From Oceanospirillaceae bacterium (GTDB lineage Bacteria; Pseudomonadota; Gammaproteobacteria; Pseudomonadales; Balneatricaceae): a stretch of 38,663 nt of DNA. The DNA lies in assembly GCA_013373575.1 (NCBI GenBank), contig JABXHP010000182.1, positions 1 to 38,663 of the forward strand. The letters run 5' to 3'. The notes beneath the pieces were generated by a model, which was not told the origin of the DNA, did no database searches, and saw nothing but the letters and a program-made list of their open reading frames with translations. Position numbers and translations under genes: made by a program. Of the stretch, positions 2,233 through 24,626 are shown piece by piece. The stretch's first letter is position 1. Every line of letters starts with the position of its first letter.

Positions 2233-5200
2233 TTAATCATCGGCCACTTCGATACCCAAAATCTCGACCCTAACCTCTTGGTTACCGTGCGGATAGCTAT
2301 TTATCTCTCCGACTTCGGCTCCCTCTACAGCTTCGCCAAGTGGACTGTCATTGCCGACGGTTGTGTACCCATCTAAGTGATAACTCGGGTCATTGGTTTG
2401 TTGTTGGAACCAAAACTTTGCAACCGCTCCAGCTCGCGGTCCATCGAGATAGCGCAGAGAGAACTTGGTGCCAATTTTTATGTAGGGTTCGTCATCTATA
2501 GGGTCACGGGGCTGTTGATCCTCAGTATCTGTATCCGTTATTGACGTGGTCTCCCCATCAAGGAATACAGGTGTTTCTGCGTCCAAGTCGGCAGGGTGCA
2601 CATAGCCCTCTGGAATTTCTTCAATGACTTTAGCCAAGCGGTCATCTAGGTATTCTTTTAAGAGCTCCCTGCATGCCAGTGGATCTCTAAACCAGTCAGT
2701 TGACCATATTCGGTATAAATCCCAGCCAAGACGGTTAAGTACTTCCTCACGTAATCTATCTCTATCACGGGCGCTTTTCGAGCTGTGATAAGAGGCCCCA
2801 TCGCACTCAATTCCGCAGATGTAGCCGAGAGGATAGGTTGGATGCTTTACTCCAATATCAATGAAATACGAGGAGACTCCGACCTGCGGAACGGCCTCGT
2901 ATCCGAGTGATTTGACCGCTTCTATTACGTGATCTTCAAACGGGCTATCCGTGTGGCCAGCTCGGTCATGTGAGTGGCTAATTTCACCTAGTCGTTTGGT
3001 CGCTGAGAATTCGAGCCAGCGTCGAAGAAGTGTTGCACCCTCGTTGGTCGGTGATGGATTGAAGTCGCTCAATGGAATTGAAGAGAATGTGACTATTTGC
3101 TCTTTAGCTCTTGAAAATAGAACGTTGAGGCGACGCTTTCCTGCTGGACCATTTATCGGACCGAATCGTTGATAGAATTTGCCCTGAGGGTCTCGACCAT
3201 AGACAGTCCCGATAAACATTACGTCACGCTCGTCGCCCTGAACGTTTTCAAGGTTTTTAACGAAGAATTTTTCTAGGCCTTCCCGTTCTGTCGACCATTT
3301 CTCTAAATATGCTGTAACGGCCTTGTTCGATTCAGCTTCCCTCAGAACCATAGTCTCAAGTTGTTCCATTTGGCTTTGGTTCATTACTGCCACACCAAGA
3401 GAGCGCTCTGGCGTAGTTTTCATGAACTGGACGATAGCATCCAACATAACTTGGGCCTCTGCGGGATTTACACCCCTCTGGAACGTGCCATTAACTTGAA
3501 CCAAGCTAATGCCCAGCCCTTCTGTTGTAGGATTCGGTGAGGGGAAAATTACCAGTTCACTGTCGTAGACATAGTGATTTGAGAAGGCTATCAGGTCCTC
3601 ATGTCGAGAGCGGTAGTGCCATAGCAAGCGGTGCTTAGGGTGGAACTGTATATTTGCTAACTCAAGTATTGACTCTTCAGTTGTGGAGACATCCTCATCT
3701 TCGTCCTCGTCATTCGATAGTCCCTTGAAGAAGTTGGTAGGAGGAAGCTGGTTTGTATCGCCTGCTATAAGGGCATTTTTTCCCCGCATTAGCGCGCTGA
3801 TCGAGTTCTCAGGAGTCATCTGTGACGCTTCGTCAATGATAACAAGATCAAAAATAGGTCCGCGACCGAGGTGTTGAGCCACAGCGGTGGGTACCATCAT
3901 CCAACATGGGAATAATTCTAACAGTGCATTTCTGGCACGTTTCAGTACTTTGCGTGGAGGGGTACGACGCTGTTTTTGAAGTTCATGTTTAAGCAGAGCG
4001 CTCTCAGTAAATTCGGACTTCCGTCCATAGGAGTTACCCTCGGGTGGGTTCGCATTTCTCAAAGCATTGGCGGTAACCTCTGACGGTGAGATCTCGATAA
4101 TTCTTCGATCAAGTTGCTGTAGTAACTTTCTGGCAGAGGTAAGCGATGTACCGTCGAATTCAAGTAGCTTTGCCCCAAAATCTCTATGGACACAGTCAAC
4201 TAGACTCGAAATTATTCCTGCTTTCGCCAACTCTCGCAGCGGTTGCGCGCTTGATAATTTGCCTAGTTTCCTGAGTAGTTCCCCGAAACCCAGCGATTTT
4301 GCTTCGGAGAAAATTGCGCGCCGCGTGATAAGGTTATTGAGTCCTGCTTGGTCTTGACGGTGTTTTTCCAGTAAGTAGATGCAGCGCGACAGATTGATTG
4401 GATTCGAATCATCAGTAGCTGCGGCTTTGGCCTTAAGCAGCGTACGCGCACAGTTATTAATTTGCTCCAGAGACTGTCGGTGTTGAGATAGAAGCGTTAG
4501 AACAACATGTCCGCTCGTACTGAAAGTTAGCGCTTTCGCTGTTTCTGACATCGATGTGTAGTTTTTGAAAGCTTCATAGAGAGAATAAATGTCCCTCTCA
4601 TCTGCTGCTCCTTGGAATACCTTGATATTTTCGCGACGCCGCGACAACAGCATGTCTGCTTGCTTACTAACCTCTATCAGTTCAGGAAGATCAACTGCCT
4701 TCTCGTGCTTCAGTTCTGCAACCAACTGTTCGGCTTTTTCCAAAGCGCTTAAGGTATGTTTGAGCTCCTCCAATTGGGTGTCTATATCGTTGTCCAGAGT
4801 TCGTAGGGCATCCCACGATAGATCCCTGGTTTTTACTTTGCTTATGAAGTCAGTAACCTCAGCAAGTGCCTCATAACCAAGGAGTTTGATCGCAACAGAT
4901 TCAGGCAAATTATGTTTGGAGTTAAGTGCAGTAGTTTCTTCGATAGATACTAAAAAATCGCTCATCAACTGATCGACAGTTCCATCGAGTTGCTCAAAGT
5001 GGTCTGAAAGCTCTAATACGCTCCACTGTTTTAGGATACCAAGCGCCTCATCGATTGCATCGAGCATACGATTTTTGGGATCTTTCGGGTTTATATCTTG
5101 AAGCAAATCCGCAATCGACAAACGAGCATTCTTGATATCGGATGACAAGAAAGAGAAAAAGCCTGCGCCTTGAATTGTATCCCGCAGCTTCTTCAACTGA

Positions 5201-7638
5201 CCTTGCGGCGCTAGCTGATTTTCACGGAACGTTTGCTTAACCTTTCTAAAGATGGTCCTCGCATTGCGAATCTCACCTTCGGCTCCCGAAAAACCTTTGA
5301 CTCGCAGGTAGTCGCGGAAACGAATGAATGGTTCCTGCTTATCAAGCAGCGATCGATAATCAAGGGCAGTTGCAGGCGATATCTCGGTCCCGACAGCAGA
5401 GGACAGATGTTCCTCATAACCAAGTAGTTTCTTCAGCGCGAATGAGCGACTCGACAAAACATCCAACGTTTTGCTAGCAAGCCCGATCGAGCATTTGGTT
5501 AATTTATATTGCTCACAAAAATCGCGTAACAACTCAAGTTCTGAAGTGCTTTCGCTGAGATTTGAAAGCTGCTGGTCACCGATTTTCAACTGAGTTTTGA
5601 AAACGCCTAGCTCATCAATCACTGCTATGAGAATTTCAAGGGAAGAGCCAATTTTGTCCTCACCGTGTTTCTCAATCAGGGAGTTTACAGACTTTAGGTT
5701 TTCGTCTGCGTCGGCTTTGACCAATTCTGTGAGTAAGTCTTCGAACGTATTCTCAAGGTAAAGTTTTAGGAGTGTTTTCGACTGCTCATCAAGTGTTTGT
5801 ATTGAGCCAGCGAAGGCAAGTAGAGGTTGTTTCGATTCAACCAGTGCTGTGTTGATTTCGTCGGTGTTTATAATGCTGGCGTCGGTTCCGTACCATATGC
5901 TTTCTTCGGGAATCTGAGACTGCTGAAGACGTTTGCACCACTCTTCAATCTGCTCACTAGCGCTTTCTAGATCTTGTTGTCCGAAGTTGGATGCATAATT
6001 CGAGGGGGTTATATCAACTGCTTTGAGTTCCAGTGGAAGCTTTTTTATCAAATTATCATTAGCAATCGATAAGCCCAGTACCTGATGCACCGACATTCCT
6101 GAGCCAGGAACAGGCTTGGTCAAAACGTCGATATAGGCTGCTAGCTTATCTCGTTGGAGTTCGAATTTCCGCTTGAGAGTTGCGAGATCTTGAGAGCTGC
6201 GCGGTGCCTCCAACTCCAATCTGTTTTTGACAGCTTCGTAGAAGTCTTCAGTACTTCCATAGCCACCCATCATCGGAAGTACGAAGTGCTCTAGGCCAAG
6301 CGATTGTAAGCGAGAGAAAACGACCTCCAACGCCGTAACTTTCTGAGCAACGAAGAGAACGCGCTTACCGCTATAAATAGCGTTGGCGATAGCATTAACG
6401 ATCGTCTGGCTTTTACCAGAACCTGGAGGTCCCTCCAGAGCAACATTTTCATCGTTAGCTACTTTGAGTAGCGCAATGAATTGAGAAGAGTCTGCGTCTA
6501 GTACCGTATGAGGAACCAGAGCTTGTCCTAATTCAGATTCAACATCCTCCTCTGAGAAAGCTCCTGAGGCAGAATCTCCATTTGGGCCTTTGCCGAGCAT
6601 TAACTCAGAAACGATTGGGAACTCTGAGAAGTCACATTCAGTCGTATCAAGGTCATAGAAAAGCTCAATTCCCTGAAACGGGTAAACGCCAAAAGAAGCC
6701 TCGCGTAGGACCGACCACTGCATGTTTCGCGGCTTTAGTTCCGCAACTCTTCCAAAGAGATTTTCTATATCAAGGTTGGATTGGCTGGAAAGCTCGTGTA
6801 TTTCAGATAGGTCGATACCAGCTTCTGCACTCAATTTATGAGCAAGAGAAGGATTGAAGATCGGCTCTCCTAGCTTTCTAACTGTATAGATTTCACCGTC
6901 TGTCGATTTGGATTTTGTTAGTGAGACAGGTAGCAAAATAAGAGGTGATTTGAACTCATCTTGCTTCTCCGCGTTAGGAAGAGTCCATTTCAGGTAACCG
7001 AGTACGATATAGACGACATCAAGTCCTCGCTCCTCTTGGTACATCCGAGCCTTACTGAGAATGCGAGACAACCTTGATTGGAATGTCTTTGGCAGCAACA
7101 GCGTTTGGAGTGCATCGTCGTCGAATCGGTCATCATCCGCTACGGCATTCGGTGATGGAAGAATACTTGAGGGATTTATTCCATGTGATTTTGCATGGTT
7201 GATGAGATCGGAAAACTGCTCGCTCTGGGGACGCGGCGGCATGTCGAGCATTTCTCTAATGCGGTCCTTAAGCTCCCGATCAGCTCGCTCTTGTTTGTCG
7301 GGCGCCTTCTCGTCGTACTCAAAATCGATTTCTTCGATTTTTTTTAGATGCTTCTCATCTGTAGCCTGAGCACTCTGAAAGGCATTTCTAAACTCCGTTG
7401 TGTCTTCATCAGGTGGATCGAGATCGACGGGAGGCAGGGGTACAAGCCGCATTGAACCACTGTCGTTTTCCACAATGCTTTTGAGAATGCTTTGCGGCTT
7501 TTCGTCGACGATACGCACGAAAGACGCTGATTTTGCGCTCAAAACATTGTTAATAAGCGGATTTCGACGAGTCGTATCCTGAAGTTTCGGGCGCAAGGCC
7601 TCTATGCGGTCATTAATTAGTCCAGAGTAGTCGTTCAT
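2233..7638 (-). CDS. Giant DUF4011/Upf1-like SF1 helicase with a C-terminal Vsr-like (MTES_1575-type) nuclease and GreA/GreB-like C-terminal domain
   Basis: Walker A EGPPGSGKSQT; Walker B DLVIIDEASQMTPE; helicase C-terminal motifs NVQGDERDVMFIGTVYG and RRLNVLFSRAKEQ; nuclease ICGIECDGASYHSSKSARDRDRLREEVLNRLGWDLYRIWSTDW; Gre-like tail SPLGEAVEGAEVGEINSYPHGNQEVRVEILGIE. Confidence 0.88.
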   Translation of the reverse strand: MNDYSGLINDRIEALRPKLQDTTRRNPLINNVLSAKSASFVRIVDEKPQSILKSIVENDSGSMRLVPLPPVDLDPPDEDTTEFRNAFQSAQATDEKHLKKIEEIDFEYDEKAPDKQERADRELKDRIREMLDMPPRPQSEQFSDLINHAKSHGINPSSILPSPNAVADDDRFDDDALQTLLLPKTFQSRLSRILSKARMYQEERGLDVVYIVLGYLKWTLPNAEKQDEFKSPLILLPVSLTKSKSTDGEIYTVRKLGEPIFNPSLAHKLSAEAGIDLSEIHELSSQSNLDIENLFGRVAELKPRNMQWSVLREASFGVYPFQGIELFYDLDTTECDFSEFPIVSELMLGKGPNGDSASGAFSEEDVESELGQALVPHTVLDADSSQFIALLKVANDENVALEGPPGSGKSQTIVNAIANAIYSGKRVLFVAQKVTALEVVFSRLQSLGLEHFVLPMMGGYGSTEDFYEAVKNRLELEAPRSSQDLATLKRKFELQRDKLAAYIDVLTKPVPGSGMSVHQVLGLSIANDNLIKKLPLELKAVDITPSNYASNFGQQDLESASEQIEEWCKRLQQSQIPEESIWYGTDASIINTDEINTALVESKQPLLAFAGSIQTLDEQSKTLLKLYLENTFEDLLTELVKADADENLKSVNSLIEKHGEDKIGSSLEILIAVIDELGVFKTQLKIGDQQLSNLSESTSELELLRDFCEQYKLTKCSIGLASKTLDVLSSRSFALKKLLGYEEHLSSAVGTEISPATALDYRSLLDKQEPFIRFRDYLRVKGFSGAEGEIRNARTIFRKVKQTFRENQLAPQGQLKKLRDTIQGAGFFSFLSSDIKNARLSIADLLQDINPKDPKNRMLDAIDEALGILKQWSVLELSDHFEQLDGTVDQLMSDFLVSIEETTALNSKHNLPESVAIKLLGYEALAEVTDFISKVKTRDLSWDALRTLDNDIDTQLEELKHTLSALEKAEQLVAELKHEKAVDLPELIEVSKQADMLLSRRRENIKVFQGAADERDIYSLYEAFKNYTSMSETAKALTFSTSGHVVLTLLSQHRQSLEQINNCARTLLKAKAAATDDSNPINLSRCIYLLEKHRQDQAGLNNLITRRAIFSEAKSLGFGELLRKLGKLSSAQPLRELAKAGIISSLVDCVHRDFGAKLLEFDGTSLTSARKLLQQLDRRIIEISPSEVTANALRNANPPEGNSYGRKSEFTESALLKHELQKQRRTPPRKVLKRARNALLELFPCWMMVPTAVAQHLGRGPIFDLVIIDEASQMTPENSISALMRGKNALIAGDTNQLPPTNFFKGLSNDEDEDEDVSTTEESILELANIQFHPKHRLLWHYRSRHEDLIAFSNHYVYDSELVIFPSPNPTTEGLGISLVQVNGTFQRGVNPAEAQVMLDAIVQFMKTTPERSLGVAVMNQSQMEQLETMVLREAESNKAVTAYLEKWSTEREGLEKFFVKNLENVQGDERDVMFIGTVYGRDPQGKFYQRFGPINGPAGKRRLNVLFSRAKEQIVTFSSIPLSDFNPSPTNEGATLLRRWLEFSATKRLGEISHSHDRAGHTDSPFEDHVIEAVKSLGYEAVPQVGVSSYFIDIGVKHPTYPLGYICGIECDGASYHSSKSARDRDRLREEVLNRLGWDLYRIWSTDWFRDPLACRELLKEYLDDRLAKVIEEIPEGYVHPADLDAETPVFLDGETTSITDTDTEDQQPRDPIDDEPYIKIGTKFSLRYLDGPRAGAVAKFWFQQQTNDPSYHLDGYTTVGNDSPLGEAVEGAEVGEINSYPHGNQEVRVEILGIEVADD

Positions 7639-7672: not shown

Positions 7673-7915
7673 CTATAAGCTAAAACATAAACTGCTCAAT
7701 CGCGGTAAGCAACCTAGCAGCAGTCCCCCATCAACTAAGCTTTTCACATAGGTCACTACGCTCGCGGAATCTGGTCCACGATCGATCAAGTCTCCAAGAA
7801 AAACAAATTGCGTGGAAGTGTCTAAATTCCATGGATCCAATCCAATCTTTTTGATCAGTCTAATCAGTGTGTCGTAATGGCCGTGAACGTCTCCGAAGAC
7901 AATCTTACGCGTCAT
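7673..7915 (-). pseudogene. Truncated PPP-family metallophosphoesterase remnant
   Basis: MTRKIVFGDVHGHYDTLIRLIKKIG...FVFLGDLIDRGPDSASVV carries the GDxHG and GDxxDRG motifs, but the GNHE and downstream motifs are missing. Confidence 0.75.
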
Positions 7916-8103
7916 CTGTGTACTCCGCGTTGGTATGAGAAGTGCGAAGAGGGACTGAAAGTTTAGTGACGTATTGTTTGAAGTTGCCACTGGAGGGCGA
8001 TGCGGGATTAAAAACCATATTGAACCCCAAGGGTGGTCATATCTCTGGGCTGAAAGTTATGCAGACATCGTAGATTAGTTTTTAACATACTGATTTCCGA
8101 CCT

Positions 8104-8523
8104 TTAAAAACGCAGTTTGGGTTCCCTAGCTCGCTCAAATATCGCATCCGCCAGTGCCCCAGCTACGTTGCTGTACCACTGATCCACATATTCACTAATC
8201 ATCTCTTGCACCTCTTGAAGGCTGAAGTGCATTGCATGCTCATGGATATCTCGAGAAATTCGGTCCATCTCAGTGTCTACAGTTTCCGCCAGATCTTTAC
8301 TCAATATGGCATACCAATCGACCCCATCATATTCAACAAGAAAATAAAAGTAGTCATAGATCGCCTCGTCCCAATATGTTGGGAGTAGGTCCTTGGTATC
8401 CGTGTCTTCAAAAAAGTATTGGCATACTGCATTAACGATCACTCGGCCAGCATCCGACTGCTCCATCAGTAACCAATCAAGAATGTGGCTTCGTTCAAGT
8501 GTCGCGATATCGCCCTGGGCCAT
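8104..8523 (-). CDS. Hypothetical acidic protein, divergent from hsdM
   Basis: 139-aa ORF rich in D/E; no family recognised. Confidence 0.6.
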   Translation of the reverse strand: MAQGDIATLERSHILDWLLMEQSDAGRVIVNAVCQYFFEDTDTKDLLPTYWDEAIYDYFYFLVEYDGVDWYAILSKDLAETVDTEMDRISRDIHEHAMHFSLQEVQEMISEYVDQWYSNVAGALADAIFERAREPKLRF

Positions 8524-8698: not shown

Positions 8699-10681
8699 AT
8701 GTCCGCGGAACAAAAAAGCCAAGTTAGTTCACTATCGTCTTTCATCTGGAGTATCGCTGATGAGCTTTGGGGTGACTTCAAGCACACGGACTTTGCTCGC
8801 ATAATCATTCCACTGTTGCTGTTACGCCGTCTTGAGTGCGTCTTGGAGCCAAGCAAAGAGAAGGTTCTAGAGTTCTATGATAAAGAGAAGAGCAGCGGCA
8901 TGGATATGGAGCTTGTGCTGCCAACCATTGCAGGGTTCCAGTTCTACAACACCTCTCGTTATACGCTGAGCAACCTTGGTTCCAATCATACGGCTGCAAA
9001 CCTTGAAGATTACGTCAGCAAGATGTCTCCAAACGTTCGTACGGTCTTTGAAGAATTTGGGTTCTCCAACACCATTGATGAGCTGGATCGTGCGAAATTG
9101 CTGTACCGAATCGTCAGTCGCTTTGCGTCTATCGATCTCCATCCAGAGACCGTTTCTAATCGCGTACTGTCTAATGCTTATGAAGAGCTAATTCGTAAGT
9201 TCGCTGCCTCAATTAATGAGAAGGCTGGGGAATTTATGACACCCAAGGACGTGGTACACCTCACCACCAAATTAGTTCTGTCACCAGATGAGCAGGTCTT
9301 TACCGATAGTGGTGTAATCCGATCTATCTACGACCCAACCTGCGGTATCTTGGGCTTCATTACGGATGGAATGGATTTGATCCACGAGTTTAATCCGACG
9401 GCGAAGATCGTTCCGTTTGGGCAAGAGTTAGATCCCAAAACCCACGCAATGGCACTCACGCTGATGCTTATTCAGGGCTTTGATGCCAAAAACGTACAGC
9501 AAGGCAATACGTTATCTGACGATAAGTTTAGCGACAAAAAATTCCACTATGGCTTGGCAAATCCGCCTTTTGGTATCAAATGGGATAAAGCCAAGGCTGC
9601 TGTAGAGCGCGAGCATAATAACCTTGGTTATGCAGGTCGCTTCGGCCCAGGTTTGCCCCGTGTGTCTGACGGTTCGATGCTCTTCTTGATGCACCTTGTA
9701 TCCAAAATGGAAGATCCCCAAAACGGCGGTGGTCGTGTAGGTATCGTTCTATCGGGTTCGCCACTATTCACGGGTGATGCGGGTTCTGGTGAATCTGAGA
9801 TCCGTCGTTGGTTGCTTGAAGAGGATATGGTTGAAGCGATCATTGCTTTGCCTACCGATATGTTCTTCAACACAGGCATCGGTACCTATGTATGGATTCT
9901 AACGAACAAGAAGGAAATCCATCGTAAGGGTAAGGTTCAACTCATCAATCTGGCTGACACTTGGACTTCAATGCGCAAGTCTGAGGGCACGAAACGACGC
10001 TACCTGACTGAAGAGCAGATCGATGATGTCGTCCGTGAATACGAATCCTTTGCGGAATCTGAGCGAACTAAGATCTTTGACACCAAAGACTTCGGCTACC
10101 GCAAAGTTGCCGTCAAACGTCCACTCAAAGGCAAGCTGGTTGTCACCAAAGAAGCGATTGCTTCACTTTCTGAAGGCAAGAACTTCCAGAAGCTGGATGA
10201 AGCTCAACAGGCTGCTTGGATTGGTTTCTTTGAAGCCAACTTGGGTGAACATGACTATGGCTGGGCGCAGTCACTCATGACTACACATAAGGGCAAAACT
10301 GCGTTCGGTAAGACAGGGAAGCCACTGGGTACTGAGTTCACCAATGCGTTCTTCGTACGTGATGAAGATGCTGAGCCTGTTCTTGATAACAAGGGACAGG
10401 TCATCCCTGATACCTCACTCAACGACAACGAAAGCATCCCGCTTGGGCAGGATATCGAAGAATACATGGGATCTGAGGTATGGCCTCATGTGCCTGATGC
10501 GTTCATCGACCACAGTGTTCGTGATGCTAAGGACGGTCAGACAGGCATCGTTGGTTATGAGATCAACTTTAACCGCTACTTCTACAAGTACGTTCCGCCA
10601 CGCCCTCTAGAAGAAATCGATGCCGATTTGAAGGCAACAGAGGCACGTATTCAGGCGCTATTGAGTGAGGTGGCAGAATGA
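8699..10681 (+). CDS. hsdM: Type I restriction-modification system methyltransferase subunit
   Basis: N-terminal HsdM-type region, EFMTPKDVVHLTTKLV, SAM motif YDPTCGILGF, catalytic NPPFG, GIVLSGSPLFTGDAGSGESEIRRWLLE. Confidence 0.95.
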   Translation: MSAEQKSQVSSLSSFIWSIADELWGDFKHTDFARIIIPLLLLRRLECVLEPSKEKVLEFYDKEKSSGMDMELVLPTIAGFQFYNTSRYTLSNLGSNHTAANLEDYVSKMSPNVRTVFEEFGFSNTIDELDRAKLLYRIVSRFASIDLHPETVSNRVLSNAYEELIRKFAASINEKAGEFMTPKDVVHLTTKLVLSPDEQVFTDSGVIRSIYDPTCGILGFITDGMDLIHEFNPTAKIVPFGQELDPKTHAMALTLMLIQGFDAKNVQQGNTLSDDKFSDKKFHYGLANPPFGIKWDKAKAAVEREHNNLGYAGRFGPGLPRVSDGSMLFLMHLVSKMEDPQNGGGRVGIVLSGSPLFTGDAGSGESEIRRWLLEEDMVEAIIALPTDMFFNTGIGTYVWILTNKKEIHRKGKVQLINLADTWTSMRKSEGTKRRYLTEEQIDDVVREYESFAESERTKIFDTKDFGYRKVAVKRPLKGKLVVTKEAIASLSEGKNFQKLDEAQQAAWIGFFEANLGEHDYGWAQSLMTTHKGKTAFGKTGKPLGTEFTNAFFVRDEDAEPVLDNKGQVIPDTSLNDNESIPLGQDIEEYMGSEVWPHVPDAFIDHSVRDAKDGQTGIVGYEINFNRYFYKYVPPRPLEEIDADLKATEARIQALLSEVAE

Positions 10682-11982
10682 ATGCTCCTTATCCCGAATA
10701 TAAAGACTCGACAGTATTGTGGGCGGGAAAAATTCCCAAACACTGGAGTGATTCAAGAATAAAATTCGTATCCACATGCCTTGATGGAAAGCGGATTCCT
10801 TTAAACGCTGAGCAAAGGGGTGAAATGCCTGGTGACTATCCTTACTGGGGAGCCAATGGAGTAGTTGATCATATAGATCAATATCTATTTGACGAAGATT
10901 TAGTGCTGCTTGGTGAGGATGGTGCTCCTTTTTTCGATTCTTTAAAAGACGTGGCATTTAATGTGTCGGGAAAGGTTTGGGTTAACAACCATGCTCATAT
11001 CCTTCGTCCAGTAATCGATAAGATCGAGAACAGATTTCTACGCCACGTTCTAAATTCTGTTTCATACAAGCTTTATATCAATGGGAGTACAAGAGACAAG
11101 CTGACTCAAGCTGAAATGAACGATATCGCTTTCCCTCTTCCACCAGTTGATGAGCAAGAGACTATTTCTGAATACCTGGATTCAGAGACCAGTAGAATCG
11201 ATTCCCTAATCTCCGAAAAACAACGCTTCATCGAACTCCTTAAAGAGAAGCGCCAAGCGTTGATCTCCCATGTTGTCACCAAAGGGCTTGATGCCAATGT
11301 GGAGATGAAGGATAGCGGGGTTGAGTGGATTGGGGTGATTCCAAAGCACTGGATTATTCGTCGCTTGAAGCATTCCAGCGTGATTCAGTCAGGCATAGCA
11401 AAGGGCAAAGATGTAGTCGGAAAAGAGACAATTGCAGTGCCTATGCTGCGGGTTGCTAATGTTCAAGATGGATACTTGGATCTTAACGATGTTCATATGA
11501 TTGATATTGAACCAAGAGAGCTTGAACGATACTCCTTGCGTGAAGGAGATCTACTTATGAATGAGGGTGGAGATAATGATAAGTTAGGTAGAGGTACATT
11601 ATGGACAGGCTCTATTTCTCCATGTATTCATCAAAACCACGTTTTTGCCATACGCATATTAGACCTCCCAGCGGAGTGGGTCGCTATGTTAACCCGTGCA
11701 TCGTATGCCAAATTTCATTTCTATAGGTCTTCGAAACAGAGTACTAATTTAGCCTCAATTTCTTCCTCAAATATTAAGTTGACCCCGCTGGTGGTGCCAC
11801 CAATTGAGGAAATCAATAACATCTTAAAATATCTGGAATCAGAATTAAGTAAGATAGACTCTCTAATCGATGAAGTAGGCAGCTCTGCGGAATTGCTTAA
11901 AGAACACCGCTCAGCCCTGATCAACGCAGCCGTTACAGGGAAGATTGATGTGCGTGGGTTTGACAACAAGGGAGCGGCGTAG
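10678..11982 (+). CDS. hsdS: Type I restriction-modification specificity subunit
   Basis: Two TRD halves beginning IPKHW, with conserved regions PLPPVDEQETISEYLDSETSRIDSLI and VPPIEEINNILKYLESELSKIDSLI; overlaps hsdM by 4 nt. Confidence 0.95.
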   Translation: MNAPYPEYKDSTVLWAGKIPKHWSDSRIKFVSTCLDGKRIPLNAEQRGEMPGDYPYWGANGVVDHIDQYLFDEDLVLLGEDGAPFFDSLKDVAFNVSGKVWVNNHAHILRPVIDKIENRFLRHVLNSVSYKLYINGSTRDKLTQAEMNDIAFPLPPVDEQETISEYLDSETSRIDSLISEKQRFIELLKEKRQALISHVVTKGLDANVEMKDSGVEWIGVIPKHWIIRRLKHSSVIQSGIAKGKDVVGKETIAVPMLRVANVQDGYLDLNDVHMIDIEPRELERYSLREGDLLMNEGGDNDKLGRGTLWTGSISPCIHQNHVFAIRILDLPAEWVAMLTRASYAKFHFYRSSKQSTNLASISSSNIKLTPLVVPPIEEINNILKYLESELSKIDSLIDEVGSSAELLKEHRSALINAAVTGKIDVRGFDNKGAA

Positions 11983-12899
11983 TGTCAGGAAAATCTATCC
12001 GACTCTTTCTTGTCGACGGTGACTACAATGGCCTCATTACTGCTGAGTTAGTGAACTGGACAGGACATACTTTAGCAGGCCCAAGATCTGAACTGCCTAA
12101 CCTACTGGCCCGTGAGGAGTGTCATCAGAGAACGGGTATCTATTTTCTTGTCAGCAGAGAATCGTCTGACTCAGGATTGTCGGTATATATCGGGGAGTCT
12201 GATGATATCGCTAAGCGGCTAAAGCAACACAGTAGGCCTGAATCTTCAGGTGGTAAGGACTTTTGGGATTATGTGGTTGTGATCACTTCCAAGGATGGCA
12301 ATCTAACAAAGGCCCACGTGAAATATCTGGAAAGTAGGCTGATTAGAATTACCAAGGATGTTGGTCGCTGTTCCCTCATTAATAGTGTTACCCCTGAGTT
12401 CACTTCGCTGCCTGAATCGGATAGTTCTGATATGGAGTTCTTTATCGAACAGGTTCAGATGGTAGTTCCTGCGATTGGATTCACCTTCCTAAAGCCAGTT
12501 AAAAAATCCGTAGACTCAGGATCAGGAGATTCTGTTATCTATCTGCTGGAGTCGCCGAAACATCGATTAAGAGCCAGAGCAACCGAAGATGGCGCAGACT
12601 TTATTGTTCTCAAAGGCTCCGATTCTATAGGGAAGTGGAACGGTAAAAACGGGGGATACGGTCGTCTATACAGAGAGCTTTGCGACAGAGGCGTGCTTGA
12701 GGAGACCCAAAATGGAAGACGTGTTTTCACAAAGGATTACGCTTTCTCTAGTCCAAGCGCAGCCGCTGCTACTGTATATGGCCGAAGCACAAATGGCCGC
12801 CAGGCATGGATTGTTGAGGGTACAGGTCAAACCTACCACCTATATCAATCGGCAAAAATAGCTGAAGTGCTACCCGACAACGAAACGTCAGAGGTCTAA
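11982..12899 (+). CDS. GIY-YIG nuclease-family protein with DUF4357-like C-terminus
   Basis: TGIYFLV...VYIGESDDIAKRLKQH; C-terminal FSSPSAAAATVYGRSTNGRQAWIVEGTGQTY resembles DUF4357. GTG start overlaps the hsdS stop. Confidence 0.88.
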   Translation: MSGKSIRLFLVDGDYNGLITAELVNWTGHTLAGPRSELPNLLAREECHQRTGIYFLVSRESSDSGLSVYIGESDDIAKRLKQHSRPESSGGKDFWDYVVVITSKDGNLTKAHVKYLESRLIRITKDVGRCSLINSVTPEFTSLPESDSSDMEFFIEQVQMVVPAIGFTFLKPVKKSVDSGSGDSVIYLLESPKHRLRARATEDGADFIVLKGSDSIGKWNGKNGGYGRLYRELCDRGVLEETQNGRRVFTKDYAFSSPSAAAATVYGRSTNGRQAWIVEGTGQTYHLYQSAKIAEVLPDNETSEV

Positions 12900-12900
12900 A

Positions 12901-15900
12901 GTGAGCCAAGCACATCACGAGATCAAGTTTGAGGAATATGTAACCCAGAAGCTGGTTGAAGGCGGCTGGGTTGAGGGCGATCCAACTAAGTACGACAAAG
13001 AGCGTGCGCTATACCCTGAGGATGTCGTTTCTTGGGTTCAATCCACGCAGCCTGAAGCCTGGGCAAAGCTCACCCGCTTGAACGGTGAAGGTGCAGGCAC
13101 GGTTCTACTTGATCGCTTGGTGAAGGAGCTGGCAGCGGGTACGGGTGGTACTGCTCAAGTTGTCCGCAATGGAATTCAGATCGCAGGCGCGGGCCGCATC
13201 AAGATGAGCGAGTCTGCGCCTGAAGATAAGAACAATGAGAAGCTGATTGATCGTTACCAGAAGAACATTCTGCGTGTAGTGCGTCAGGTTAAATACTGTC
13301 CGACCCGTGAGTGGTCGATTGACCTTGTTCTGTTCATCAATGGCATTCCTGTTGCCACTGTTGAACTCAAAACGGACTTCACCCAGTCCATCGATGATGC
13401 GATAGAGCAATACAAGAAAGACCGTCTTCCTAGTGATCCCAACACCAAACGCAAAGAGCCGCTACTAACCTTTAAGCGTGGTGCAGTCGTCCATTTTGCG
13501 ATGTCTGATTCAGAGATTGCGATGACCACAAAGCTAGATGGAGACGGAACCTTCTTCCTTCCATTTAACAAGGGGAACAATGGTCATGCTGGTAATGCGG
13601 TTCGTGCCGATGGAGAATATCCTGTTGCTTACTTTTGGGAAGAGGTCGCAACCTGGGAAAACTGGCTACGCATATTCCATAGTTTCGTCTTTGTTGAGAA
13701 GGCCCAGAAGGTCGACAAGCATGGAAACCCTTACATCAAAGAGACGCTGATCTTCCCACGCTACCACCAGCTTGAAGCGGTCAATCGTATGATTTCTGAT
13801 GTGAAGGCGAACGGCCCAGGTCTTCAATATCTCAATGAGCACAGTGCTGGATCAGGCAAAACGAACACTATTGCATGGACAGCTCATGACCTCATTAAGC
13901 TCCGTTATGATGATGGTAAGCCTTACTTCAACTCTGTAATTGTCGTTACAGATAGAACGGTTCTAGACGCTCAGTTACAGGATGCGATAGGTCAAATTGA
14001 CGCAAACTTTGGTGTCGTAGCTAACATCGAACGTTCTAAAAGCTCTAAATCCAAATCAGAGCAACTAGCCGAAGCGATGCTGAACGGATCACCAATTATT
14101 GTGGTAACGCTGCAAACGTTCCCATTTGCGATGGAGGCAATCCTCACCGATAAAAAACTTCTCGATAAAAGTTTCTCCGTCATCGTTGATGAAGCTCACA
14201 CAAGCCAAACAGGGTCTAGCGCTCAAGCGCTAAGCCATGTCTTAGGAATGAAAAGTTCTACAGACTTGAGCGCCATGGACATTGACGATTTACTGCTGGC
14301 GATCCAGAGCATGCGGGTAAGGCCAAAGAATGTGTCATATTTTGCATTCACAGCCACGCCTAAACATTCGACTATGATGCTATTTGGGCGCCCGCAAGAT
14401 CCATCTCAGCCTGTTTCAGATGAAAATCCACCAGTATCGTTCTCGAAGTACACTCAGCGTCAGGCGATTGAAGAGGGCTTTATTCTGGATGTGCTCCAGA
14501 ACTATACGCCCTATAAAGAGGCTTATCGCTTAGGCAGCCACCTTGACCACGATGAACGGGTAGATAAGAAGTTGGCGAACCGTGCCCTTGCACGATGGAA
14601 ATCTCTTCACCCGACCAACGTCCATCAGAAGATCGAATTCATCATTAACCACTTCATGATGACCATACATCCATTGCTTGAAGGTGAAGCTAAGGCGATG
14701 GTGGTTACCAGTGGTCGCCCGCAAGCGGTGAAGTACAAGATGGCTTTCGACAAGTATATCGAGAAGCATGGTCTTCAGGGCGTAAAAGCCTTAGTAGCAT
14801 TCTCGGGCAAAGTTACTGGCGATCTGTTAGGTGATGATGACCCTGCTGACCCAATAGGCTTTGACCCAGAGGGCGAGTACACGGAATACAGTCTCAATCC
14901 AGGCGCTGACAGTTCTGACCTGCGCCATGTATTCGATCAAACCGAGTACAACGTCATGATCGTTGCCAACAAATTCCAGACAGGCTTCAATCAGCCAAAG
15001 CTTGTCGCTATGTACTTAGACAAGCGTTTAAGTGGTGTTGAAGCAGTCCAGACACTTTCCCGTCTAAACCGCACTTACCCTGGTAAAGACACAACTTACG
15101 TTATCGACTTCGTGAATGAACCAAAGGTAATTCTGGACTCTTTCAAGCAATACGACGATGGTGCTGAGATTGAGGAAGTTCAGGACTTAGACGTTGTATA
15201 TGACCAGAAAGCTAAGTTGGATGAGCTTGGTATATATAACAGTGCTGATCTGGTTAAGTTCAAGGACGCCCGTGGAAAATTCTTCATGGGTAAGCACAAA
15301 CCAAGCGAGCTCCATAAGAAGCTCTATGCGGCTACACAGCGTCCTACAGATGTATTCAACGCCCAGATGAATCAGTTGAATGAGACTATCAAGCATTGGG
15401 ACCAAGCATTCGATAAAGCTAAGACGTCCAACGATGAGAAAGGTATGGAATATGCCGAATCTCAGCGCTCTGAGTACAGCAAGCAGCGTGAGTTGCTGAA
15501 TGTATTCAAGTCAGGTTTGGGTAAGTTTGTACGCACCTATAACTACATCGCTCAGTTGGTAGAGCTGGCTGATGCAGAGCTTGAGAACTTCGCCGCCTTT
15601 GCCAAACTCCTTGCCCGTCGTCTCCAGGGCGTGCCTGTTGAGCAGATTGATCTCACAGGTATTGTGATGACCCATTTTGAGATCAAAGAGAGAGAGTTTG
15701 ATGGTGAAGGTGAAGCGTCCCCGTTGAACCCTGTTGGTTCAGGCATCGAAGAAGGCAGAGACCGCGAGAAGGAATTTCTATCTCAGATCATTGCACGAAT
15801 GAACGATATTTTCGGCGACGTATCTGACCAAGAGAGTCGTGAGCACTTTACCAACCATATCGTCGGGCTTACTCAGTCCAATGAGGTTGTGAAAGAGCAA

Positions 15901-16107
15901 ATTGAGAAAAACACCAAGCAGCAGGCTCTAAATGGAGACTTGCCTGCAGAGGTAAACGCTGCCATTGTAAGAGCTATGACCTCACATGGAGAGCTTTCAA
16001 GAGTCTTACTTCAAGATCCACAAAGTATGTCAGCATTTGTCTCGCTGGTGTACGACATCGCGAAATCTAACCAATCTGATTCATCAAGACAGAGCGGATT
16101 TGGCTAA
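12901..16107 (+). CDS. hsdR: Type I restriction endonuclease subunit R
   Basis: GTG start; Walker A HSAGSGKTNTIAW, DEAHTSQTG, FAFTATPK, nuclease-like SIDLVLFINGIPVATVELK. Confidence 0.95.
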   Translation: MSQAHHEIKFEEYVTQKLVEGGWVEGDPTKYDKERALYPEDVVSWVQSTQPEAWAKLTRLNGEGAGTVLLDRLVKELAAGTGGTAQVVRNGIQIAGAGRIKMSESAPEDKNNEKLIDRYQKNILRVVRQVKYCPTREWSIDLVLFINGIPVATVELKTDFTQSIDDAIEQYKKDRLPSDPNTKRKEPLLTFKRGAVVHFAMSDSEIAMTTKLDGDGTFFLPFNKGNNGHAGNAVRADGEYPVAYFWEEVATWENWLRIFHSFVFVEKAQKVDKHGNPYIKETLIFPRYHQLEAVNRMISDVKANGPGLQYLNEHSAGSGKTNTIAWTAHDLIKLRYDDGKPYFNSVIVVTDRTVLDAQLQDAIGQIDANFGVVANIERSKSSKSKSEQLAEAMLNGSPIIVVTLQTFPFAMEAILTDKKLLDKSFSVIVDEAHTSQTGSSAQALSHVLGMKSSTDLSAMDIDDLLLAIQSMRVRPKNVSYFAFTATPKHSTMMLFGRPQDPSQPVSDENPPVSFSKYTQRQAIEEGFILDVLQNYTPYKEAYRLGSHLDHDERVDKKLANRALARWKSLHPTNVHQKIEFIINHFMMTIHPLLEGEAKAMVVTSGRPQAVKYKMAFDKYIEKHGLQGVKALVAFSGKVTGDLLGDDDPADPIGFDPEGEYTEYSLNPGADSSDLRHVFDQTEYNVMIVANKFQTGFNQPKLVAMYLDKRLSGVEAVQTLSRLNRTYPGKDTTYVIDFVNEPKVILDSFKQYDDGAEIEEVQDLDVVYDQKAKLDELGIYNSADLVKFKDARGKFFMGKHKPSELHKKLYAATQRPTDVFNAQMNQLNETIKHWDQAFDKAKTSNDEKGMEYAESQRSEYSKQRELLNVFKSGLGKFVRTYNYIAQLVELADAELENFAAFAKLLARRLQGVPVEQIDLTGIVMTHFEIKEREFDGEGEASPLNPVGSGIEEGRDREKEFLSQIIARMNDIFGDVSDQESREHFTNHIVGLTQSNEVVKEQIEKNTKQQALNGDLPAEVNAAIVRAMTSHGELSRVLLQDPQSMSAFVSLVYDIAKSNQSDSSRQSGFG

Positions 16108-18972: not shown

Positions 18973-19947
18973 ATGGAACTTGTAGATTCAATCGTACTCA
19001 AAGGTCTGAGGGGAGTTGGCGACGGAACCGTAACAAAACTCCTAGAATTTAGTCTAAGAAATGATATCTCAACGCTAGAAGAGTTGGCATATGTTCCAGT
19101 AGAAAACCTTCCGTTGAGGCGTGTCCCAGAGTCACTTGAAGAATTCCTAATAGCTGGCGATTTTGAAGTTGCGAGGCTTGCTGTTGATGACAACCTACGA
19201 GATTGGGCAAATAAAGGAATAACGGTTATCAGCCGAAGCTCGCCGCAATACCCCTCTCGTCTGCTCGATCTAAAAGACCCCCCTCCCTTTCTCTTCTGCA
19301 AAGGAAATCTTGCGTTACTGGACGACTCGAAAGCGATAGCCGTAGTAGGAACGAGAAATAACACGCAGAGGGGTAAACTAATTGCGACCAAAACGGTTGA
19401 GGCGTTCAATTCTCACGGGTTTGTAGTCGTGAGTGGTCTTGCCATCGGTATAGATACAATAGCCCACAGAGCAGCTTTGGATTGCGGGGCGCCTACGATT
19501 GCTGTCTTAGTTGATCTCTTGAAGATATCTCCATCACAAAACAAATTATTAGCTCAGGAAATATTGGAGAAGGGTGGTCTTCTGGTGGCAGAGAATCCTC
19601 CAGGCACATCAACAATTGCAGCACTCTTTGCGAAGCGTGACCGCATTCAGTCTGGACTATCTACTGCAGTTTTTGCTGTCGAGACTTCCAAAGGTGGCGG
19701 AACCATGCATGCTGTGAGGGCTGCAGTTCAATTATCACGACCTGTATTTGTCCCAGACCCCATTGCAGCGCGATATGATGATCTCTCATTAGATGCTATT
19801 GAAGGAACACAGCATCTAATATCCGAGCAGATAGCTCGAGCATATACAGGGCAGTCATATGAGGCTATCAGCCAAGAGTTAACCGCTGTAGCTGATCGAA
19901 TAGAAAATCCCCGAATTCCAGAATTACAGGGAGGTCTAGGTCTATGA
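18973..19947 (+). CDS. DprA/Smf-like (SLOG superfamily) DNA-processing protein
   Basis: AIAVVGTRNNTQRG, VVSGLAIGIDTIAHRAALD, EILEKGGLLVAENPPGT, FAKRDRIQSGLSTAVFAVE; helix-hairpin-helix-like N-terminus. Confidence 0.9.
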   Translation: MELVDSIVLKGLRGVGDGTVTKLLEFSLRNDISTLEELAYVPVENLPLRRVPESLEEFLIAGDFEVARLAVDDNLRDWANKGITVISRSSPQYPSRLLDLKDPPPFLFCKGNLALLDDSKAIAVVGTRNNTQRGKLIATKTVEAFNSHGFVVVSGLAIGIDTIAHRAALDCGAPTIAVLVDLLKISPSQNKLLAQEILEKGGLLVAENPPGTSTIAALFAKRDRIQSGLSTAVFAVETSKGGGTMHAVRAAVQLSRPVFVPDPIAARYDDLSLDAIEGTQHLISEQIARAYTGQSYEAISQELTAVADRIENPRIPELQGGLGL

Positions 19948-22900
19948 TAAAGGTCATTATTCTAGACCTTGATGACACTCTAATTGACACGAGGGCACTA
20001 GAACCACTACGCCAAGCAGGACGATGGCGAGATGTGCGCAATCACCTGAAGCATTGCAGCGTAAACGAGGATGTTCTAGGTCTGCTTACAACTGCAAGGT
20101 CCGCAGGGATTAAAACTGCCTTATTCACCAATGCTCCTTCAAACTATGTTCAGGAACTGCTAAGGCATTTTGATATCACGGTCGACACTGTGGTCGCATA
20201 CCACGATGTCAAACAGCACAAGCCTTCGGCAGAAGGCGTTCATAAAATACTGGAGCTATTCTCAGCAGCTCCCCATGAGGTTTTGTATCTTGGCGATAGT
20301 GAACTCGACAGAGGGGCTGCCGACAGTGCGGGGGTAGAGTTTTTTGCTGTGGAGTGGGGGAACGTCGCTAATATCGACGCCGCCCATCAAGGTGTCGTTA
20401 AATTATCTGAGTTAATTGGCGCCAGATTAGCAAATGAGAATCCGAATCAGTCACGTTCAGAATTAGTGATAGATGGCAACAAAATATACCTTGGCTACTA
20501 TCTAGAAGGGATAAAGCAAGAGGTATGGGCCTTTAAAGATGGTTCCATTTCAGCCGTTGATAGGTGGGTCTCGAAAGCAACCGAGCTATCAAGTCTCTTC
20601 CCCGAAATAGACTTCGTTGTCAGAGCTCTCGGACATGCAGAACTCGCACCAGAGGGTAGGGATAAACCGTTAGATAGATTAAGCAATGCATTGGCTCAGT
20701 CGTTGGATGCACGATATGTCCCAGAAGCACTGATCAAAAAACGGGCGTTACAGAAGTCTACTGGTATCACTGCTGTAGAGCGTTCGGAGCAAGTCCGCGG
20801 CGCATATTCGCTCAAACGAGATGCCGCAATTTCAAGTTTTAACCAGCCAAGGTTTTTGGTTGTTGACGACGTGTTTACATCAGGTGCAACAACAGGGGAG
20901 ATTCAAAGAGCAATTACGGAAGCATATCCGACAGCTCAAGTCTTCGTATTCACATTGGTCAAAACGCTTTATAGGTCTGCGGCCAATCGAGCTAGCCTAG
21001 AGTTGCAGCATAATAATCAGCTCTTTACTGATCTTTTCCGCCAACAAATTGCGACTCATGATGGTGAGGCGGAGCATTCTCCTCACAACCCAAGTAAGCG
21101 TCGCCTGGTTTCGAAGAAATTCACCGCCAATTACACAAACACAAATCACAACTTCGTTGCTCACAACTTACCGTTCTACTCTATTGCGTCAGAGGCAAAC
21201 TCTGAGCAGCTTTACGCTTCTCTCCAAATTCTGAAGAACATACTTCAGAGAGGAAAGCCGACCATAGCCTCTCGACGTTTGCGAAACTCATTTGGACTAG
21301 CTGTTGATGAAACTGGATTAAATCTCGAGCCGTTACCACTGATTTCCTCCCAGCCAGTTAGCTGGAAACGAATGATCAGGGGAGATCAAAAGTCAGGAAA
21401 TTATCCTGCAAAGTTTTTCTTCGAGGAGTTGTTTGAGAAGCATTTGGGAAAATATGGGTTCATAAAACAGCTGACGGTACCTGAAGTCCAGATTTTTGAC
21501 ATGACGCAGGTGTATGTCGATCAATTTCAGAATAGGCAGGTCGACTTCTACATTCCTCAAGTCGGTGTAATTATTGAAATAGATGGAGCCCAGCATCATA
21601 GTTCAGCAGACATTGATAGACTTCGCGATGACTTCGCCTCATCGCTGGGACTAAGAACATTCAGGTTCACGGCTGCAGAAGTATCTGTTGAGAGTGATGC
21701 CTTCATCGATAAAATGAAGGAACTCATTCGCTACATAGAGCTTATTGATCATCAGGAGCAAGATGGAACTTTAGCACCTCCAAATGGCATAACTATTCGT
21801 GACTACGCCGAACACTATGCCCAATCGACTCGTTGCGATACAGATCAACGTTTCCAGCTGACCGCGTCCTGCAGGTTTCAGGTTTTGTTACTTGAGCTGA
21901 TTGAGCGGGGGGTTATCAGGTTGGGGCAGTCTTCCAAAGTTAAGTTGGTGAATCAGGATCAAATAGATTTTGTTAAGGAAGCGGTTGACGATCTTAATGA
22001 GCTAATTGCGAATATATTTTGCCTACAAGGGTTGGATCTCGGAGCACTAAAACTCGAAATCGAGGAGCTAGATAGACTCCCCACCGATCGCGATAGCGAT
22101 TCGCTGTTTATTGATTTTAGTATTCGAGAACGGTTCGATGATCGGCATCAAGTAAATCAGGATGTGATATTCGTCAGAACAGATTACTTCGATTTTTATC
22201 GTGTCTTCCCGAGTGGGGATTCATCGTCAATTGAGAACCTTCTTCTCGAAGACTATGACCATTTTAAATTGTCGTGCGCTAAACCCATAGAATACGAGCT
22301 GGACTTGAGTCCAGCGAGCGCCCAGCGAGAGTCTTTACGGTACTTCCTCAGTAATCTGTTTCTACCTCTGCTAGATGATGTGGATTTCAGAGAAGGGCAA
22401 GTTGGAATTATCGGGTCGGCCCTCTCGCGTCATAGTACGATAGGGCTTCTCCCCACAGGCTCGGGTAAATCAATTTGCTACCAACTTTCTGCAGTGTTGC
22501 AGCCCGCCGTTAGCTTTGTTGTTTGCCCGATTAAGAGCCTGATGTATGACCAAAAAGCAGATCTTGACGCCATCGGTTTCAATCGCAGTAACTACATTAC
22601 AAGCGAACTCAGCGCTGGCGAAAAAGCGCGCGTACAAAGAGACTTCGGGCGCGGCAAATACTTCTATGTATTCATCTCACCAGAAAGATTCCAAACGCAT
22701 GCGTTTAGGAGAGAAATGTCCTCAATCGGACTAGATCTTGCGTTCGCTTACGCGGTGATTGATGAAGCGCACTGTCTCTCTGAGTGGGGTCATGATTTCC
22801 GCACGTCTTACTTGAACTTGGCTAACACCATAGAAAAATTTGCTCCGTCCGCCAGTTATATAGGTTTGACAGCCACGGCCTCGGTGAACGTGTTAAAAGA

Positions 22901-24626
22901 TATCCAAACTGAATTCAGCATACCTGATGAGTACATTAGAACTCCTCTCAATTTCACACGGGATGAACTAGCATTTCACGTCATCGATGATGAGGGACGT
23001 AAGGCCGATGTCATAGTCGATCTTGTTTCTAAAATGGAGGCAAAATGGAACGTAACAGAAGAGGATTCAAGCGGCAAAGCAGGCATTATTTTTACGTCGA
23101 CAGTTAATGGAAACAAAGGCTGCCACAGCCTCTCGGGACGTTTATCAACGTTACTAAATATGGATGTGCGTTACTTCTCTGGGTCAGCTCCTAAAGGAGG
23201 CGGGCTGCATGGGGAGGCCTTCGATCGTTACAAGCGACAGGTACAAGACGATTTTAAAGACAACAAATATCATCTGCTAGCTGCTACGAAAGCTTTTGGC
23301 ATGGGCGTTAACAAAGGTAACGTTGCATACACAATTCACTACGGCATTCCTGGATCGATGGAGGCGCTTTATCAAGAGGCAGGCCGTGCAGGCCGCGATA
23401 AACGTTTGTTCCAGAGTACGCCCGCGGATTGTTTCGTGTTGCTTACAAAGGAAGGGGACGAGCAACTATTGGAAAAGATATGGGATCAGAGCACCAGTGT
23501 TACTGATCTGAAGAAGCATGTTAAGAGCCTGAGCCGCAATGGCGATTTAAACACCAATATGTTCTTAATGACAGCTAACCTGGATACCATCAATGACGAA
23601 TTTAAGCTTCTCGCGAACATCTATAACCATCTCTCGTCCAACCAAGAGCTTAAAACAGTCACTTTAAGCGCGCGTCAGTTCGGAGTAGAGAAAGCGAAGT
23701 TTGAAAAGGCTGTATATCGTCTATCCCAATTGGGTATAGTTTCGGACTGGGTTATAGAAGACTTTTTCAACGGGACGCTCGAAATAGAGTTCCAGTGTCC
23801 AGATATCGACACACTTGAGAGCAACATAGAAGATACGGTTCGTAAATATGACCCTGATTTCAAACTCGACGGTATTTTTTCGAGTGATAACGAGTACTAC
23901 AAGGTCATCTGTGAGAAATTGACCCGTGGCTCAATTGATAAAGCCCAGTTCATATTCTTGGTTCTGTTACTTTGGTCCTACGATCATTTCGTATACAACC
24001 GCCGTCAGTCGCAAAAGAACGTCTACGACGAGTGCGTAAAGGTCGCAGGCAAAGATGCCTCTGCTGAGGCCGATTTTAAAGCGAAACTCGAAGGTTATTT
24101 CAGGCATGACAAGTCAAGTCAGCGTCTGCTTCATTTGGCTGAAAATTCTACTGATACGGGTTTGTGGCTTTCTGTGTTCCACAAAGATGTCGACGAAGAG
24201 GGATCTAAAGAGCTGATTTCGGAAACAGAGCTAAATACCCTCAGCGCTCAAATCTCTCGTTTCCTAGAATCCTATAAAGACAATCAATGTCTGGACTACT
24301 TGAGCGGAGTAGTAAGATTAGCTGCGGATCAATTCGACGATACCGACGGTGAAGTTCGAATGTCATCATCGTTAGACAAAGTTATGTCCGCAAGTCGTGA
24401 GAGCGCACTCACTTTGATCCGTGAGACCCTCAGTCTCAGGAAGTTTTTCTCCGAGGAAGCGAGAGGCAGATTCGCACGTTTGGTCCACGAAAAATTTGGA
24501 GATCAACAAGTACTTGAGGAAATAAATCAAGAGTTTGAAGACCCTTACTCTTACCACACCCTATTGTCTCCGTTGGCAGCTCGCCTCCAGAGGCTCACAT
24601 CCAGCTATAAAGGAGTCGATTGGTGA
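19944..24626 (+). CDS. Multidomain fusion: HAD phosphatase + phosphoribosyltransferase + Vsr/DUF559-like nuclease + RecQ-family helicase
   Basis: HAD: IILDLDDTLIDTR, LYLGDSELDRGAA. PRTase: FLVVDDVFTSGATTGE. Nuclease: RQVDFYIPQVGVIIEIDGAQHHSSADIDRLRDDF. Helicase: LLPTGSGKSICYQL, DEAHCLSEWGHDFR, GLTATAS, FGMGVNKGNVAYTIHYGIPGSMEALYQEAGRAGRD. Confidence 0.92.
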   Translation: MIKVIILDLDDTLIDTRALEPLRQAGRWRDVRNHLKHCSVNEDVLGLLTTARSAGIKTALFTNAPSNYVQELLRHFDITVDTVVAYHDVKQHKPSAEGVHKILELFSAAPHEVLYLGDSELDRGAADSAGVEFFAVEWGNVANIDAAHQGVVKLSELIGARLANENPNQSRSELVIDGNKIYLGYYLEGIKQEVWAFKDGSISAVDRWVSKATELSSLFPEIDFVVRALGHAELAPEGRDKPLDRLSNALAQSLDARYVPEALIKKRALQKSTGITAVERSEQVRGAYSLKRDAAISSFNQPRFLVVDDVFTSGATTGEIQRAITEAYPTAQVFVFTLVKTLYRSAANRASLELQHNNQLFTDLFRQQIATHDGEAEHSPHNPSKRRLVSKKFTANYTNTNHNFVAHNLPFYSIASEANSEQLYASLQILKNILQRGKPTIASRRLRNSFGLAVDETGLNLEPLPLISSQPVSWKRMIRGDQKSGNYPAKFFFEELFEKHLGKYGFIKQLTVPEVQIFDMTQVYVDQFQNRQVDFYIPQVGVIIEIDGAQHHSSADIDRLRDDFASSLGLRTFRFTAAEVSVESDAFIDKMKELIRYIELIDHQEQDGTLAPPNGITIRDYAEHYAQSTRCDTDQRFQLTASCRFQVLLLELIERGVIRLGQSSKVKLVNQDQIDFVKEAVDDLNELIANIFCLQGLDLGALKLEIEELDRLPTDRDSDSLFIDFSIRERFDDRHQVNQDVIFVRTDYFDFYRVFPSGDSSSIENLLLEDYDHFKLSCAKPIEYELDLSPASAQRESLRYFLSNLFLPLLDDVDFREGQVGIIGSALSRHSTIGLLPTGSGKSICYQLSAVLQPAVSFVVCPIKSLMYDQKADLDAIGFNRSNYITSELSAGEKARVQRDFGRGKYFYVFISPERFQTHAFRREMSSIGLDLAFAYAVIDEAHCLSEWGHDFRTSYLNLANTIEKFAPSASYIGLTATASVNVLKDIQTEFSIPDEYIRTPLNFTRDELAFHVIDDEGRKADVIVDLVSKMEAKWNVTEEDSSGKAGIIFTSTVNGNKGCHSLSGRLSTLLNMDVRYFSGSAPKGGGLHGEAFDRYKRQVQDDFKDNKYHLLAATKAFGMGVNKGNVAYTIHYGIPGSMEALYQEAGRAGRDKRLFQSTPADCFVLLTKEGDEQLLEKIWDQSTSVTDLKKHVKSLSRNGDLNTNMFLMTANLDTINDEFKLLANIYNHLSSNQELKTVTLSARQFGVEKAKFEKAVYRLSQLGIVSDWVIEDFFNGTLEIEFQCPDIDTLESNIEDTVRKYDPDFKLDGIFSSDNEYYKVICEKLTRGSIDKAQFIFLVLLLWSYDHFVYNRRQSQKNVYDECVKVAGKDASAEADFKAKLEGYFRHDKSSQRLLHLAENSTDTGLWLSVFHKDVDEEGSKELISETELNTLSAQISRFLESYKDNQCLDYLSGVVRLAADQFDDTDGEVRMSSSLDKVMSASRESALTLIRETLSLRKFFSEEARGRFARLVHEKFGDQQVLEEINQEFEDPYSYHTLLSPLAARLQRLTSSYKGVDW

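Follow-up and report, generated by a model that had tools for sequence, protein, structure and literature searches.

Hhe, which has been grouped with the Upf1-like SF1 helicases (PMC10925250), and the PADLOC family PDC-S37 are the closest described counterparts of the protein reported here, with which they share a core of DUF4011, an SF1_Upf1 helicase and a nuclease, high profile scores and a defence-island setting. The same helicase and Vsr-like REase core occurs in MTES_1575 proteins with wHTH (DUF3320) tails, which were described in the HEPN survey of 2013 with no mention of GreA (PMC3710099). Further relevant systems involve RNA polymerase (RNAP). In the secondary-channel factors GreA, GreB, Rnk and Gfh1, the globular C-terminal domain (CTD) is the part that binds RNAP, and Rnk is an RNAP binder despite a coiled coil too short for the active centre (PMC4598747). 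HelD, an SF1 NTPase, grips RNAP via a Gre-like region, the globular part of which is similar to its counterpart in GreB (PMC7749165), and Kaur et al. (2021) predicted that the GreA/B-C domain of TPR-PIN conflict proteins targets hijacked RNAP (PMC8195603).

The window, by which we mean the whole analysed stretch of 38,663 nucleotides, encodes a protein of 1801 aa (2233-7638, minus strand, as are all features of this gene), in which ORF, Pfam, PADLOC and NCBIfam analyses delineate, in this order, DUF4011, an SF1/Upf1-like helicase, an MTES_1575 REase, a linker and a GreA/GreB C-terminal (Gre-C) domain. The earlier note had called it a DUF4011-type helicase-nuclease, and this assignment holds: in the full protein, DUF4011 (aa 18-269, 6832-7587; 94.9 bits, E 6.5e-27), AAA_11/AAA_12 and MTES_1575 (aa 1567-1662, 2653-2940; 114 bits, E 3.1e-33) each exceed the Pfam cut-off and follow one another in order. 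The SF1 helicase domain, as seen from the AAA_11/AAA_12 matches, is interrupted by a long insertion; its Walker A region (aa ~385-450, 6289-6486; EGPPGSGKSQT) was located by Pfam AAA_30/AAA_19 and sequence, and the part from Walker B to motif VI (aa ~1262-1517, 3088-3855; VIIDEASQ ... RRLNVLFSRAK) by AAA_11, AAA_12 and sequence. The motifs of both the helicase and the Vsr-like nuclease are intact, the acidic residues of the nuclease (FID...IECDG) are invariant in 24 relatives (alignment A4), and AlphaFold2 (AF2) models the nuclease with a pLDDT mostly >90. Judged on profile E-value, the top PADLOC model is PDC-S37 (E 1.5e-276), followed by Hhe (E 1.7e-179). The protein differs from both in that it scores 890 bits with NCBIfam Hhe_antiphage, below the equivalog cut-off of 2000, and in that Gre-C lies outside the matched profile regions, the PDC-S37 match ending before the tail at profile position 1346 of 1550.

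Between the nuclease and Gre-C (2242-2514) lies an acidic linker (2500-2568). In an AF2 model of 241 residues covering nuclease, linker and tail, residues 131-153 have a pLDDT <50 and the domains on either side are confident, which gives the layout of a tether; the ~25 residues before Gre-C are probably disordered and flexible. This nuclease and low-confidence linker stand where Gre factors carry the coiled-coil N-terminal domain (NTD) that they insert into the secondary channel, with its catalytic acidic tip; according to Pfam and AF2, this NTD is absent. The reading frame runs unbroken into the tail, and the domain order is the same in relatives on other contigs, which rules out a frameshift or chimera as the origin of the tail.

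By profile comparison and predicted structure, the last ~85 aa of the protein are a Gre-C domain. The single sequence alone gives only a sub-threshold match, since GreA_GreB (PF01272) is found with E 0.014 in the full protein and with E 3.5e-4 and 20.9 bits in the isolated tail, under the gathering score of 26.9; a phmmer search of the PDB with the lone window tail returned only noise. Relatives were therefore gathered from genome and viral collections and their C-termini extracted, and 23 distinct loci, including the window, carry a tail alignable to that of the window. Against a profile of the 22 other tails, from which it was left out, the window tail scores 33.5 bits, compared with no more than 7.7 for any of 5,000 shuffles. 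PF01272 is matched by all 20 members of the tail alignment A2 (best 2.2e-17), and the A2 profile retrieves from the PDB E. coli GreA (1grj) with E 1e-9 over the whole CTD, and after it structures of Gfh1 and of the Rnk type; across the phylum, it also picks up ordinary Gre factors from many genomes. A template-free AF2 model of the tail reaches a pLDDT of 88, and its top Foldseek matches are GreA, Gfh1, Rnk and GreB (probability 1.00, TMq 0.6-0.7), the first 14 all being these proteins or GreA/GreB-family entries. Thus, the earlier note, which had recognized a Gre-factor C-terminal pattern at 2233-2490 and expected structure prediction to yield the FKBP-like Gre-C fold, is borne out by tail profiles, PDB matches and model alike, and its limits agree with ours. 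The window tail is the most divergent of the 23, with the lowest score when the profile is built from true Gre factors only; this score is 8.6 bits, a value reached by about 3 of 5,000 shuffles, so that its link to GreA goes via the relatives.

Whether such a tail still docks on RNAP was approached by comparing residues in 59 Gre factors and 23 tails. With the CTD of GreA, GreB, Gfh1 and Rnk, tails of the window type have in common the fold, the PL(G/A)xA motif and the core positions G21, V24, G50, P57, L/I58, A/G59, A61, G68, D/E69, I/V84 and I/V87. They differ, apart from the missing NTD, in positions that are near-invariant in Gre factors and variable in tails, namely S56 (98%), R60 (98%), K65 (89%), S53 (86%) and the PxGG loop; in the window tail, the conserved Arg is replaced by E and the PxGG loop is missing. 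In Mycobacterium tuberculosis Gre, RNAP is no longer bound once the Ser in front of PLG is changed (S127E; PMC3132773); at the equivalent position, E, K or R stands in several of the natural tails and Ser in that of the window (SPLG). In E. coli GreA, binding is lost by S121P, and NTD and CTD both seem to be needed for specific RNAP binding (PMC7527559); the Ser matching S121 is not conserved in the tails. On this basis and by analogy with the known factors, docking on RNAP has, in our judgement, about an even chance of being correct for the family and a somewhat lower one for the window copy, and recruitment of the helicase-nuclease to RNAP is a reasonable inference.

The divergence at putative RNAP-contact positions alongside a preserved fold core would be expected if the Gre-C fold had been re-purposed, no longer binding RNAP but another partner, such as its own helicase or nuclease, on which it would act as an autoinhibitory lid, or a phage protein that it would sense. 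The very long branches of the window tail and of the tail at locus L005, as well as the alternation of C-terminal modules within the clade, also fit such a change of partner. Against this, the PL(G/A)xAL loop is conserved and corresponds to a segment that has been linked to RNAP binding in Gre factors, and Rnk, with its Gre-type CTD, is cited as an RNAP binder (PMC4598747), and we consider re-purposing unlikely, although deserving of serious attention.

The distribution of the tails bears on their importance for the enzyme. In a quick maximum-likelihood tree of the helicase-nuclease core (103 rows), which is not an even sample because loci were gathered by similarity to Gre-tailed queries, Gre-C occurs in 22 rows, all within one clade of 50 (support 99). 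In this clade, it is mixed with many short, tail-less forms, an FLExIPxYLR tail, two other tails and the DUF3320 tail, and the starred branches force at least six changes of tail label, a count that does not separate gains from losses. Two proteins (L033 and L039) carry both modules, with Gre-C placed between the nuclease and DUF3320; otherwise, the DUF3320-tailed proteins differ from the window protein in ending in a wHTH in place of Gre-C. At locus L151 (G509:C77), a DUF3320-tailed helicase-nuclease (3-1436) has a decayed Gre-C tail directly behind it in a different frame (1399-1710), broken by an internal TAG; this is likely the trace of a tail replacement. Apart from this decayed remnant, no stand-alone Gre-C gene was found beside tail-less copies in the loci searched. 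A tree of the tails themselves, weak with its 72 columns, places 22 of 23 together and apart from most GreA/GreB; two identical rows from divergent frames of 198-239 aa group with them, and the very long branch of L005 is placed within the Gre factors. The simplest reading of these sequence comparisons would be a single capture of Gre-C, followed by loss and replacement.

Further observations concern the range and state of the C-terminal ends. Gre-tailed copies are present on three IMG/VR contigs, viral by collection label (L140, L142 and L143). A tblastn search of plasmids with the C-terminal piece gave no match, and in the phages collection a C-terminal query from a relative matched one record, in the nuclease part only. 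Other modules follow MTES_1575 helicases at L043, L046 and L019, which, read by eye, include a BRCT-like end (L043) and a WGR-like end (L019). One Gre-tailed gene (L031) has a single in-frame stop near position 8408, just past the nuclease motif RIWSTD, and represents a pseudogene or an assembly error, and at L114 (G061:C2) the open frame that contains the GreA match is 1238 aa long and may be a product of fusion to the gene upstream or of read-through from it.

Because the tail is often missing or replaced in the clade, the core enzyme does not depend on it in every member, and it could be accessory or vestigial, of little functional weight, with the helicase-nuclease working alone. The tail-less L020 shares a genome (G046) with its Gre-tailed sister L005, L036 lacks the tail at 56% core identity to the window, and a decayed Gre-C remnant is present at L151. 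This explanation has to contend with a Gre-C that is still an open, foldable unit in most of the 23 divergent loci and whose fold is predicted with good confidence even in the most divergent copy, and we regard it as quite improbable. Still less credit is given to the idea of the tail as an anti-Gre or anti-DksA competitor, which would occupy the mouth of the secondary channel and alter transcription, with the nuclease as a second effector. It has precedents in Rnk, Gfh1 and Rv3788, which displace Gre factors and DksA from RNAP (PMC4598747), but the tail has no coiled coil for channel entry, and a very large and probably scarce protein would presumably be a poor stoichiometric competitor. A chance resemblance to Gre-C, suggested by the single-sequence score under the Pfam cut-off, is rejected as practically negligible by the leave-one-out profile, the 20 of 20 matching relatives, the PDB profile matches and the AF2 and Foldseek results.

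The genomic setting of the gene is that of defence. The window is a defence island, given its content of restriction-modification (RM), PDC-S14, helicase, DprA-like, HAD/DEAD/DUF559 and GmrSD_C genes. On the plus strand, a type I RM operon (hsdM, hsdS, hsdR; 8699-16107) holds the GIY-YIG/DUF4357 gene (PDC-S14) between hsdS and hsdR, and a large protein of 1560 aa (19944-24626) unusually combines a HAD-like hydrolase, a weak PRTase_2 match, a DUF559 nuclease-like part and DEAD/Helicase_C; the DprA-like gene (18973-19947) adjoins it, and the helicase gene of the island is UvrD-like. Upstream of the helicase-nuclease gene, a short ORF (7673-7990, minus strand) that matches only the first ~60 positions of Metallophos is probably a truncated calcineurin-like phosphoesterase. 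Other Gre-tailed genes also have defence and mobile-element genes nearby, among them type I RM, GmrSD, resolvases and integrases; across the Gre-tailed loci examined, RM genes are frequent and no neighbour is constant as a fixed partner would be. At L057 and L143, three same-strand genes sized like hsdM, hsdS and hsdR lie right behind the Gre-tailed gene. From the family and the neighbours, we infer an anti-phage activity of the window protein. The host genome has two further PF01272 genes over the cut-off and of GreA/GreB size, and the tail is therefore no replacement for the host Gre factors.

Taking sequence, model and analogy together, we favour, at roughly even confidence, a single-gene defence-island helicase-nuclease of the Hhe / PDC-S37 kind that carries an RNAP-docking tail. 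Most plausibly, Gre-C would attach, as GreA/B and Rnk do, to the beta' rim helices, which lie where the secondary channel opens; since the coiled coil is missing, it would tether only, and transcript cleavage would not be triggered. The tether would hold the helicase close to transcription complexes, where, during active transcription of invading DNA, it could load on the ssDNA of the bubble, on R-loops or on nascent RNA; cutting by the nuclease would follow. In relatives that end in a DUF3320 wHTH or some other tail, the same core would be fitted with a docking module of another kind. As Gre-C alternates in the clade with no tail, DUF3320 or other tails and survives as a broken remnant in one genome, the tail would be a swappable targeting module. 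More tentatively, and with clearly less than even confidence, we propose that a clade of defence helicase-nucleases finds invaders by riding on RNAP, the transcription of foreign DNA being the targeting cue and the dock being swapped for other C-terminal modules.

Two described architectures come close to this arrangement. HelD is likewise an SF1 ATPase with a Gre-like RNAP-docking element, and a weak Foldseek match of the tail model (probability 0.95, E 0.18), but this element lies at the N-terminus and includes a coiled coil that invades the channel, and the protein is no nuclease (PMC7749165). The TPR - GreA/B-C - PIN proteins also join GreA/B-C and a nuclease in a stand-alone conflict protein; they have TPR, a PIN nuclease and variable N-terminal effectors, whereas the window protein has an SF1 helicase, a Vsr-like REase and Gre-C at the extreme C-terminus. 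The use of Gre-C for RNAP targeting was thus already predicted (PMC8195603), and what is new, as far as the open-access literature goes, is Gre-C on a helicase-nuclease core, an architecture of which we found no description there. A Gre-tailed homologue on a Rhizobium leguminosarum plasmid is publicly annotated merely as 'DUF4011 domain-containing protein'.

To our knowledge, the way in which large helicase-nucleases of the Hhe kind recognize invaders is not established. A C-terminal Gre-C that alternates with other modules in one clade points to a concrete and readily testable recognition route via the transcription machinery for part of this family, and carries the GreA/B-C prediction beyond the TPR-PIN proteins to another, unrelated architecture, in which the enzyme may be tethered to the transcription machinery in order to find invading DNA or RNA.
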